Assembly: GCF_900176565.1 (NCBI RefSeq)
Contig: NZ_FXEH01000006.1
Location: 186,001-250,000, forward strand
DNA length: 64,000 nucleotides
Source of the DNA: Thalassobacillus devorans
Lineage (GTDB): Bacteria > Bacillota > Bacilli > Bacillales > Halobacillaceae
Reading direction: 5' to 3'
Position numbers and translations under genes: made by a program. Numbering within the stretch: the first letter of the stretch is position 1; each line of letters opens with the position of its first letter. Below the pieces are notes generated by a model, which saw only the letters and a program-made list of their open reading frames with translations, was not told the origin of the DNA and did no database searches. Of this stretch, positions 34,786 through 48,993 are shown in pieces.

Positions 34786-34887
34786 GACGTTAAGAGAGAC
34801 AATTCCTTTGTATGAGAAACAAATCGTTCTATATATGCGCTGTATGGCGCTGGATGAGAGACTTTTTCGCAAATAAGAGAGACAATT
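34786..34887 (+). repeat. 21-nt periodic GAGACAA array A, left part
   Basis: Degenerate units with a GAGACAA-like core at 34796, 34816 (GAAACAA), 34837 (decayed), 34858 (GAGACTT) and 34879: steps of 20, 21, 21 and 21. Each core usually follows a purine-rich TAAGA or TGA lead. It lies in the 3' UTR of moaD and is cut by the IS3-family element immediately after the AATT that forms the target duplication. Confidence 0.75.
34884..34887. other. IS target duplication, left copy (AATT)
   Basis: AATT at 34884-34887 is repeated at 36312-36315 on the other side of the element. Deleting the IS and one copy restores a 21-nt step in the repeat array. Confidence 0.7.
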
Positions 34888-35015
34888 TGGAATTCTGTCA
34901 ATAAAGTGGACAAAAATAGATCACTCAGCGGGCCACTTTTTCTTCCGCGTGTTTTCTTCCGAAACACTTGGATGCCTCCGCATAAAGGGAAGGATACCAA
35001 AACCGATCCTACCCT

Positions 35016-35876
35016 TTATGCAGAGGGAGTTTGTTCTGAAGCGAGCTTCTGACTTTGGCCCGAATAATAGGCCTTTTCTTTTTCAATAGGGCTCTTATCA
35101 TCCAAGAAGGAATGCATACGCTTCTGGTTATAAAATTTAATATAAAATTGAACAGCTAAAATAGCTTCAGCTTTTGTAGGGAATACGTATTTATACAAGT
35201 ACTCCTTTTTTAATGAGGCAAAGAAACTTTCGACACAGGCGTTATCATAGGGTGTGCCTTTCCGACTCATGCTTATTGTAGCTTGGGCTTCTTCAAGGGT
35301 TTCTACATAAGCCCTGGAACAGTATTGGGATCCTTGATCTGAATGATGGATCCATCCTGCTTCTGGCTCCCGAAGGGAGATAGCTTCTTCTAAGGCATGT
35401 AGAGATAGCGATTGTTTCATATGGTCGTCAATACGAAAACTGATAATACGGCGAGAATACAGGTCCATGACAGGATTTAGATACAAGAATCCTTCACCAG
35501 TATGAATATAGGTAATATCTGTAGCCCAGACCTTGTTCGGAGCTTCTGGTTGAAACTCTCGTTTCAAATGGTTAGGAAAAGTTTGATTGGCATGTTTCGA
35601 ATCGGTAGTCGCTACAAATTTCTTTGGTGGCACTGCATACAGTTCTAACTCTCTCATACGGTTAGTCACTTTCTTCAAGGAAACCGATAGTCCATCCTCA
35701 TCCCGGATTTTTTTATGAATACGAGGGCTGCCGTAACACCCATGATTATCGTGATAGTGAAATAGAATTCGCTCATCTAAATAACGATTGAATGCTTCCC
35801 GCTCTGTTTCTGGCCGCTCTAACCTGTGGAGGTAAGCATAATAGCCGGATGTAGACACACCAAGAACTTCGCACAT
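35016..35876 (-). CDS. IS3-family transposase OrfB (DDE integrase domain)
   Basis: 286 residues from the first ATG; the real product is probably an OrfAB fusion. HTH_21-like start (STSGYYAYLHR), NHGCYGSPRI, then the DDE catalytic core: Asp in WATDITYI, Asp in HHSDQGSQY and Glu in CVESFFASLKKE. The frame stays open upstream of the ATG (…KFEFIYEHRTEHTVSK), overlapping the end of orfA in the -1 frame. An AAAAAG run near 35930 is a plausible slippery site. Confidence 0.92.
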   Translation of the reverse strand: MCEVLGVSTSGYYAYLHRLERPETEREAFNRYLDERILFHYHDNHGCYGSPRIHKKIRDEDGLSVSLKKVTNRMRELELYAVPPKKFVATTDSKHANQTFPNHLKREFQPEAPNKVWATDITYIHTGEGFLYLNPVMDLYSRRIISFRIDDHMKQSLSLHALEEAISLREPEAGWIHHSDQGSQYCSRAYVETLEEAQATISMSRKGTPYDNACVESFFASLKKEYLYKYVFPTKAEAILAVQFYIKFYNQKRMHSFLDDKSPIEKEKAYYSGQSQKLASEQTPSA

Positions 35877-35923
35877 CTTCGATACGGTGTGTTCTGTACG
35901 ATGTTCATAAATGAACTCGAACT

Positions 35924-36232
35924 TTACTCTTTTTCTTGCGTGAAGATGTGCATTGCCTTTTTTAATATTTCGGCTTCCTCCTGAGCTTCAAGCTTCTCTT
36001 GCCGTTCTTTTTCATACATCTCTTTGTACTCAGAGGCCGTTAATAGCTGGTTTTGTTCCTCTTTTTCTGCGTTCTTCTGCTTGTCACGATAGCTCCCTAC
36101 CCACCGCTTAACGGTACCGTAAGGTAAATTGAGCTTGTTGCAAATATCAGTCATTTTATGTCCGTCTAGGACAATCATTTTAGCTACATACTCTTTAAAT
36201 TCCGAACTGTAACTCTTCATTTTTTTAGTCAA
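35924..36232 (-). CDS. IS3-family transposase OrfA (HTH)
   Basis: 102 residues: N-terminal HTH (SSEFKEYVAKMIVLDGHKMTDICNKLNLPYGTVKRWV) and a C-terminal coiled coil/leucine zipper (about 60-100). It binds the terminal repeats. It ends a few codons past a run of A where ribosomes would shift by -1 into orfB. Confidence 0.9.
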   Translation of the reverse strand: MTKKMKSYSSEFKEYVAKMIVLDGHKMTDICNKLNLPYGTVKRWVGSYRDKQKNAEKEEQNQLLTASEYKEMYEKERQEKLEAQEEAEILKKAMHIFTQEKE

Positions 36233-36311
36233 GTGAACACGTCCTTAATTTAAGCTTTAGGTCGATTAAAACATGGCTCACTACCTGTGTCCACTTTCTA
36301 TACTAGTTCCA

Positions 36312-36380
36312 AATTTTTTAAAAAAGAGAGACAATATCGGAAAAAAGAGTGACAAGACAGCTGCAATAGAGACAACCCAC
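36312..36380 (+). repeat. 21-nt periodic GAGACAA array A, right part
   Basis: Cores at 36328, 36349 (GTGACAA) and 36369. Subtracting the 1428 bp of IS plus one duplication puts 36328 at 34900, exactly 21 nt after the last core on the left side. The array ends about 15 bp before an intrinsic terminator. Confidence 0.75.
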
Positions 36381-47686: not shown

Positions 47687-47779
47687 GTTAATATTCCTAC
47701 TAATTCATTTACTTATTACAAACAATATAGTTAAAATAAGAGTAACATAGAGACAGCCGACGCAGTAGGAGTGCTTATA

Positions 47780-48733
47780 GTGAAAAAAATCATCATACTT
47801 AACCTAATCGCCATGATGCTATTGGCCGGATGTAAAATCGGCTTTACCGAGGGGGAAATCAGATCCGTCGGAATGCTGGTGGAGACGACGATTCACGATC
47901 AGGCCTGGGGACAAAAAGGTTACAAAGGTTTAATGAACATCCAAGAGGAATACGATGTTGATGTTTATTTTAAAGAAGGCATTAAAAGTCAGCTTGATGT
48001 AAATAAAGCCGTAGATGAACTCATAGACAAAGGGGTTAACGTAATTTTTGGGCATAGCAGTACGTATGGCGAATATTTCAAAGAAATCCATGAGGAGTAC
48101 CCTGAAGTTCATTTTGTGTATTTCAATGGCGGTTATGCGGCCGATAACGTCACCAGTCTCAATTTCAGTTCAGTAGCTATGGGATTCTTTGGCGGCGTGG
48201 TTGCTGGCAATATGACCAGCACGGATCAAGTAGGTTTGATTGCTGCTCATGAATGGCAGCCGGAAGTGGAGGGCTTTTACGAAGGCGTAAAGTACAGCAA
48301 TCCGGAAGCGATTGTTAATTTTTCGTTTGTGAATAGCTGGGATGACACAAAACGGGCAATGGACCTGTATGACCAGATGGCGCAGCAGGGAGCTGACGTG
48401 TTTTATCCGGCCGGTGATGCTTTCAACCCTCCAATGATCCAGCAGATTCAGAATGACGGTCTTTATGCGATCGGCTATGTTTCGGATCAATCTTCGCTTG
48501 GGGAAGGAACGGTCCTGACAAGTACAGTCCAGCATGTAGAGGAATTATATATGATAGCTATGGAAAAATTGATGGATGGGAGCCTGCCAGGCGAAGTCCT
48601 GACTTTCGATTTTCAGGATGACGCCATCTCCATGGGAAAATTCAGCCCTAATGTTCCTGAGAACGTGAGGGAAGAAGTGAATCAGATGGTGAACACCTAT
48701 ATTGAAACAGGGAAGTTGCCTACACAGCGGTAA
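47780..48733 (+). CDS. med: BMP-family lipoprotein, Med-like
   Basis: 317 residues from GTG 47780 (TAGGAG upstream). Lipobox MLLAGC (Cys about 18), then a basic-membrane-protein/PnrA-type binding fold (IRSVGMLVETTIHDQAWGQKGYKGL, NVTSLNFSSVAMGFFGGVVAGNM). In B. subtilis Med, a BMP-type lipoprotein affecting competence via ComK, lies at this position before fabH. No comZ follows here; instead there is a repeat array and a terminator. Confidence 0.82.
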   Translation: MKKIIILNLIAMMLLAGCKIGFTEGEIRSVGMLVETTIHDQAWGQKGYKGLMNIQEEYDVDVYFKEGIKSQLDVNKAVDELIDKGVNVIFGHSSTYGEYFKEIHEEYPEVHFVYFNGGYAADNVTSLNFSSVAMGFFGGVVAGNMTSTDQVGLIAAHEWQPEVEGFYEGVKYSNPEAIVNFSFVNSWDDTKRAMDLYDQMAQQGADVFYPAGDAFNPPMIQQIQNDGLYAIGYVSDQSSLGEGTVLTSTVQHVEELYMIAMEKLMDGSLPGEVLTFDFQDDAISMGKFSPNVPENVREEVNQMVNTYIETGKLPTQR

Positions 48734-48794
48734 AATGAAGCCCTGCTTTCTAATGAAGGGAAAACAGTAGTTTATTTAATTCTCAAGACTAAAA

Positions 48795-48962
48795 ATTTAT
48801 TGAGACAATCTAACTGTAAGAGTGACAATATAGGAAAGAAGAGAGGCAAAGTCAAGAGTAAGTGAGACGTTTTACTTGCGAAGAGAGAAAAATTTTTTAA
48901 AAAAAGAGACAAAATTAAAAATATGAGAGCATTGGCGGTTGTCATAGAGACAATCCGTGAGA
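48795..48962 (+). repeat. 21-nt periodic GAGACAA array B
   Basis: Eight degenerate units with cores at 48802 (GAGACAA), 48822 (GTGACAA), 48843 (GAGGCAA), 48864 (GAGACGT), 48885 (GAGAAAA), 48906 (GAGACAA), 48927 (GAGCATT) and 48947 (GAGACAA). Steps are 20,21,21,21,21,21,20. Units usually begin TAAGA or AAAGA. It fills the 3' UTR of med and ends at the base of an intrinsic terminator. Units differ too much for a CRISPR and there is no spacer/repeat contrast. Confidence 0.8.
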
Positions 48963-48991
48963 GCACCTCCGCAAACTGGAGGTGCTTTTTT
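48963..48991. terminator. bidirectional terminator after array B
   Basis: GCACCTCC / GGAGGTGC stem, 7-nt loop, six T, between convergent med and a small minus-strand gene. Confidence 0.87.
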
Positions 48992-48993
48992 AG

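Follow-up and report, generated by a model that had tools for sequence, protein, structure and literature searches.

The eight short cores that follow the med gene belong to a dispersed family of phased arrays, which is present at about 38 loci in the genome of Thalassobacillus devorans studied here (G000). The window, i.e. the whole stretch of 64,000 nucleotides that was analysed, contains two of these arrays (Table 1). The core, GAGACAA, is non-palindromic and directional, and successive cores are set about two helical turns apart. We read the arrays as double-stranded DNA platforms for a putative oligomeric protein, which may act as insulators, road-blocks or chromosome anchors at gene ends, and this reading is given tentatively, with not quite an even chance of being right.

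Table 1. Features of the window that concern the two arrays.
Feature	Position	Strand	Remarks	Basis
BMP-family lipoprotein gene (med)	47771..48733	+	upstream of array	Pfam PF02608, 2.5e-63
Eight-core phased array	48802..48953	+	cores at 48802, 48822, 48843, 48864, 48885, 48906, 48925/48927, 48947	
Central units 4-6 of the med array	48864..48926	+	family-wide: AT-rich spacers	
Terminator-like hairpin AGCACCTCC/GGAGGTGCT followed by T run	48962..48991	+	shortly 3' of core 8	sequence
Small convergent ORF, 66 aa	48994..49194	-	no Pfam match	
Second family array, IS-split within unit 5	34796..36375	+		
IS3-like insertion sequence in second array	34888..36311	.	target duplication AATT(T)	
IS transposase (rve integrase core, HTH_21)	35016..35876	-		Pfam
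First ORF of the IS (HTH_Tnp_1)	35924..36232	-		Pfam

The preliminary description had claimed eight GAGACAA-like cores in 48795..48962, and all of them were located there; the seventh, GAGAGCA, allows two choices of start. The family sequence model matches the array at G000:C4:234801-234955 with an E-value of 6.9e-21, the array (L236) itself being among the 29 training members of that model. Unlike the family pattern, its unit 4 spacer is not AT-rich. The gene name med is taken from the earlier sequence note, and the Pfam evidence is for the BMP family. No plus-strand ORF of at least 60 aa is found between med and the next gene (48734-48993); in Bacillus subtilis, med is followed by comZ. The placement in a 3' UTR that was first proposed holds at this locus, where the array lies between the med stop codon and the T-tract hairpin, but it is no rule for the family. 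The window's own med array is a poor survivor across relatives: judged by eye, just remnants of the array ends are left in the sister genome G004, the array of G001 is degenerate, and G002 has none at the med locus.

Taken singly, the med array is moderately periodic against dinucleotide shuffles, a comparison that the preliminary description had proposed since such periodicity might arise by chance. Ten pairs of exact 4-mers occur at lags of 20-21 (shuffle mean 2.65), which 19 of 2000 shuffles reach, and four pairs of exact 5-mers (shuffle mean 0.82), which 84 of 2000 reach. The array scores 62.1 as a chain of cores and the best of 1000 shuffles scores 24.0, though this comparison is partly circular because the scorer, which permits a pitch of 19-23 and favours 21, was tuned on the family. 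TRF at score 30 does not report the array, as fits units that share the core only. In the genome as a whole, the pattern GAGAC-N14..17-GAGAC-N14..17-GAGAC has ten matches while its reverse has none, and four cores at pitch 21 with at most three mismatches give 47 matches, overlapping ones inside one array being counted separately, against none for the reversed pattern. A DNA search with the med array likewise found a second, similar array. The whole-genome matches and their reversed controls thus show that the med repeat is real rather than a chance effect, and that it belongs to a family dispersed through the genome; the similar arrays that were to be looked for elsewhere in the genome do exist.

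The size of this family was estimated with a sequence-only model built from 29 arrays. At E ≤ 0.01 it finds 44 segments in G000, which become 38 loci when six segment pairs are merged as halves of IS-split arrays, and the weakest few of these matches (E about 0.001-0.01, with rough calibration) may be due to chance. The corresponding number of segments is 37 in G004, partly by construction since 27 of the 29 arrays come from that genome, 14 in G001, 10 in G002 and one in G010, while G003, G005, G008, G023, and G062 have none at this threshold.

The strict phase of about two helical turns that had been noticed at med is borne out by fixed pitches in the 29 arrays. These were picked for having at least eight cores, three nine-core chains being trimmed to eight with a first pitch of 20; all 29 have 20 bp as the first pitch and 21 bp as the fourth and as the fifth. 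Pitches two and three can be 20 or 21, pitch six ranges over 19-21, and pitch seven over 20-22. The distance from the first to the last core is 143-146 bp in every one of them. Chains of four to seven cores and a few of nine are also present, and eight is the commonest number in Thalassobacillus, so the number of units, whose co-variation the preliminary description had put forward for testing, does not vary freely. The spacers of units 1, 2, 3, and 7 vary from locus to locus. Those of units 4-6 have a GC content of 0.17-0.20 in the 29 arrays and contain short dyads. These AT-rich spacers may contribute bending, but a phased bend alone, which was among the roles first suggested, leaves the conserved core unexplained.

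A comparison of G000 and G004 bears on what is conserved. Over 21 orthologous array pairs, 17 of which were found by their cores in both species so that core conservation is inflated, substitutions are seen at 39 of 664 core positions (the four GAGA positions; 5.9%), 193 of 1158 spacer positions (positions 7-14; 16.7%), 475 of 3984 non-coding flank positions (11.9%), and 627 of 8669 coding flank positions. Gap events number seven over 3138 array positions against 57 over 3984 positions of non-coding flank. In the four less biased pairs, which were reached from the G004 side and were still visible to the scanner in G000, the core has 17 changes in 136 positions and the spacer 54 in 240 (Fisher 0.02). 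The lower number of core changes and the rarity of gaps within the arrays suggest that selection acts, locus by locus, on the core as well as on the spacing. It had been suggested that selection acts on spacing and not on sequence; the first half of this agrees with the conserved spacing, but the core sequence is conserved as well.

Six loci where an array in G004 is matched by an alternative in G000 were aligned. At two of them (L329/L249 and L336/L259) the core type is switched at one site, TAGACAA in G000 versus GAGACAA in G004, with the same orientation and with flanks conserved in both species. At the other four, G000 lacks the array together with neighbouring DNA (L333, L323), is about three units shorter (L324, versus L241 in G004), or carries an IS (L331). 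By eye, none of the six comparisons has a clean insertion boundary or a clean empty site at the array ends. At a further locus, L242/L325, the G004 sequence is unrelated to the TAGACAA array that G000 has there. Hybrid arrays, in which GAGACAA cores flank central TAGACAA cores, occur at L230/L243 and L325:2936/L242, and are much alike in the two sister species.

The second array of the window is uninterrupted in its G004 orthologue (L240). When G000 was searched with one end of the IS that splits it, six copies were found, all of them inside arrays, in one orientation relative to the array and at the same point of the unit. The entry point in the interrupted copies is in unit 4 or 5, and four of the five copies tested show target duplications of 4-5 bp. 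The shared register of all six copies means that the arrays are recognised as specific sites by at least one protein acting on DNA, be it the transposase or a partner from the host.

In Thalassobacillus the arrays are often found between convergent genes. With gene calls of at least 90 aa, and omitting L223 (weak score) and chains of fewer than five cores, this applies to 12 of the 21 G000 arrays and to 16 of the 33 from G004, as against 19 of 116 intergenic gaps of at least 120 bp in a background of 323 kb of G000 (Fisher 1.8e-4 and 3.3e-4, respectively); the two counts are non-independent as the genomes share most loci. Without the two IS-split rows, where the neighbour is an IS gene, the G000 count is 11 of 19 (Fisher 2.7e-4). 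Convergent placement is weaker elsewhere (14 of 53 in G010 and 4 of 20 loci of other genera), and it is a tendency of Thalassobacillus rather than a rule. Divergent placements number 1 of 21 in G000, 1 of 33 in G004, 6 of 53 in G010, and 1 of 20 in the other genera. Among the clustered nearest neighbours of the arrays no gene family has more than two members, and by eye the orientation of the arrays has no relation to GC skew, i.e. to replication polarity.

All 38 loci of G000 lie outside a stretch of 1,327 kb (C4 beyond 1.0 Mb and C1 before 460 kb; P 3.1e-7 for a zone that was chosen after looking at the data). The dnaA gene is on C1, and the sampled GC skew flips at C4 1.14-1.22 Mb. Given the inferred contig order, most of the array-free stretch belongs to the distal left replichore, and along the right replichore arrays occur up to about 0.2 Mb from the skew flip. 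Noc sites avoid the terminus, and such avoidance was considered for the arrays and dropped, as the skew flip puts the empty zone mainly in the distal left replichore.

In the mechanism that we propose, each core would bind one subunit, or one dimer, of a sequence-specific protein, and to judge from the spacing alone the bound subunits would all lie on one face of the helix. The eight sites could then nucleate a single oligomer with about 145-150 bp of DNA held or wrapped around it, the AT-rich middle spacers easing the bending. Such a complex might separate opposed transcription units as an insulator or road-block, or be an anchor that organises the chromosome; these roles are suggested by the location of the copies mainly at gene ends and, in Thalassobacillus, especially between convergent genes. 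The core type would be expected to change when the protein changes, and this would explain both the dominant core of each lineage and the replacement of cores at the same locus. A DNA-protein platform is favoured by the pitch near two helical turns, the lack of RNA structure (see below), the recognition by the IS, the placement on either side of terminators, and the replacement of cores with the layout kept. The multimeric binding site that the preliminary description had listed as a possible role is in our judgement probable, with a protein that is so far postulated. Several observations speak against the platform: the neighbourhoods tie no cognate gene to the arrays, G010 shows less enrichment between convergent genes and the 20 loci from other genera show none, the array-free stretch is not predicted, and several lineages have other core numbers (five or six, or more than eight).

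The nearest working model is ParR bound to parC, to which the arrays may be likened in manner of working and not in membership. A parC centromere has tandem direct repeats of about 10-20 bp to which ParR binds. In parC the tandem direct repeats are also about two helical turns apart (20-bp repeats in pSK41), repeat sequence and spacing are specific for each family, and the DNA is wrapped round the oligomer (PMC9426499, in part). However, parC is one site beside parMR, while the arrays occupy about 38 chromosomal loci and have no gene family with more than two members among their nearest neighbours. If the platform reading is right, the arrays provide a system for testing how the specificity of a DNA-binding protein changes jointly with dozens of genomic sites, and bear on how convergent transcription units are separated or the nucleoid is organised in bacteria.

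A selfish or mobile extragenic repeat of the REP or MITE kind, with cores that are recognition sites for a transposase or replicase acting in trans, and with copies that spread, decay, and are parasitised by IS, is an explanation that we regard as unlikely, if by no means far-fetched. The family is dispersed and extragenic with a high copy number, its core types differ by lineage, and its chromosomal spread is uneven, while near-alike copies with shared flanks occur in G010 and one paralogous pair in G004. REPs and BIMEs of enterobacteria and pseudomonads are similarly dispersed, and are targeted specifically by insertion sequences that include IS3-family elements (PMC1525189, in part), as the arrays are here. 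The units of REPs are palindromic, however, whereas the arrays consist of direct, phased cores and have fold z-scores that average near zero on both strands. MITEs share with the arrays that they are small, non-coding, and repeated, but neither terminal inverted repeats nor target-site duplications were seen by eye at L249, L259, L256, L238, L254, or L241. Furthermore, single copies look constrained after the divergence of the species, which is unexpected for pure parasites, and a neighbouring gene family that recurs above two members is lacking. Even if selfish, the arrays are a repeat family in which no palindromic units or inverted ends have been found so far, and in which all known copies of one IS have their target.

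It is less probable again, and in our view improbable, that the arrays are transcribed RNA elements of 3' ends, where GAGACAA would be a protein-binding RNA motif or the antisense TTGTCTC repeats would aid termination. Many copies do lie between a stop codon and a hairpin, as at med, and tandem copies are more often sense than antisense relative to the preceding gene (17 versus 7 in G000 and G004 together, 20 versus 11 in G010). In the 20 loci from other genera, however, the two orientations are equally frequent (7 versus 7), and at nine of the 17 tandem-sense loci of G000 and G004 a terminator-like hairpin stands between the preceding gene and the array, which would often leave the array untranscribed from that gene. 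No fold beyond that of shuffles was found in the 29 arrays (mean z -0.27 sense and -0.05 antisense), and the pitch is close to two turns of the DNA helix. As between the RNA- and DNA-binding sites that had both been offered, the RNA option is therefore the weaker one, having a mild strand preference alone and no fold.

A neutral, decayed minisatellite made by slippage is very improbable. The units are short, tandem, and degenerate, L241 and L324 differ by about three units, and some of the longer G010 arrays are built of a repeated 82-bp module. The spacers of units 1, 2, 3, and 7 are nevertheless as unlike within an array as random letters (identity 0.268 versus 0.263), which argues that the array was not built by repeating one unit; spacers of the same index in different arrays have an identity of 0.309, and the AT-rich spacers of units 4-6 one of 0.471 within an array versus 0.340 for random letters. 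Minisatellite units are alike over their length, while here the core alone is shared, and unit number and pitches are position-specific with cores and spacing conserved. Antisense coding of heptapeptide repeats (21 nt being seven codons), for which a minus-strand frame of 64 aa is open at the med array (48772-48966), is hardly conceivable. It has no Pfam match, and in the arrays of Thalassobacillus and G010 the frame is lost wherever a pitch of 20 or 19 nt comes at its fixed place; lineages whose pitch is always 21 are uninformative on this point.

The arrays were also compared with catalogued elements. CRISPRs likewise have repeats set apart by unlike spacers, but their repeats are near-identical and of 23-50 bp, while the arrays have cores of 5-7 nt at a pitch of 20-21 nt, typically eight units, and dozens of loci; the view that the med array is not a CRISPR is thereby upheld. 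In Rfam the best match of the window is PyrR with 28.4 bits, below the gathering threshold of 54, and the arrays of L236, L239, L283, and L341 have no match at E ≤ 0.01. One G004 array has no match in the plasmid and phage collections, nor one G010 array in the plasmid collection. In agreement with the preliminary description, no name for the element was found, and no published description of such arrays was recognised in the literature searched, the scope of which left out most subscription papers, so that an earlier description is possible.

Related arrays with other cores are found outside the GAGACAA family. TAGACAA arrays with a first pitch of 20 occur in G001 and in G000, several with exactly eight cores and others with five to nine. 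G010, which is another genus of the same family, has CGGACA arrays with 21,21,21,21,19,21,21(,21) as the commonest pitch series, in which the first eight cores again cover 145 bp. Of 56 scored chains, 32 have eight or nine cores, the commonest numbers, and 24 are shorter or longer. In G033 and G259, from another family of the order, phased arrays with TTCGGACA have chains of seven to nine cores, eight in five of seven loci, and GGTTCG precedes the first GACA in five of seven. Further lineages have five to ten or more cores, some with pitch 21 throughout. It may be that these arrays constitute a Bacillales-wide class of nucleoprotein sites, typically with about eight phased cores over about 145 bp, in which each lineage has its own core and a co-evolving protein. 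At gene ends the sites would serve as insulators or anchors, and a change of the protein would rewrite the code across the genome, which would let sister species carry different codes at one locus. This generalisation is doubtful, though a good deal short of improbable. If it is right, a well-studied bacterial order harbours chromosomal sites of a kind that is difficult to annotate, as only core and spacing are conserved.

A tally of the pattern across the order is no evidence on its own, since 59 of 249 genomes match and the reversed controls match in 44 genomes; examination of these genomes covered the fetched loci. A scan of named genomes gave at least 119 stretches, and among the matches listed most are exact minisatellites or coding-like repeats; the present array type is seen there in Thalassobacillus devorans, and a related one in Virgibacillus halodenitrificans (L070). 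The latter consists of two adjoining arrays with a 20/21-nt pitch (L070:5384-5830), one with GAGACA-like cores preceded by CC and the other alternating 20- and 21-nt units. G031 has 21-nt arrays of the form GAGACTAAATCC..CTACC on C51, C56, C62, and C117, which are more uniform than those of Thalassobacillus. In G010 a second dispersed repeat of about 120 bp, GC-rich (GGCGAGACTCCCGCGGGAG...) and with no Rfam match in the two loci searched (L283 and L341), follows the array at L276, L283, L337, L341, L353, L363, and L364, and array and repeat together seem to form a composite unit of roughly 480 bp.
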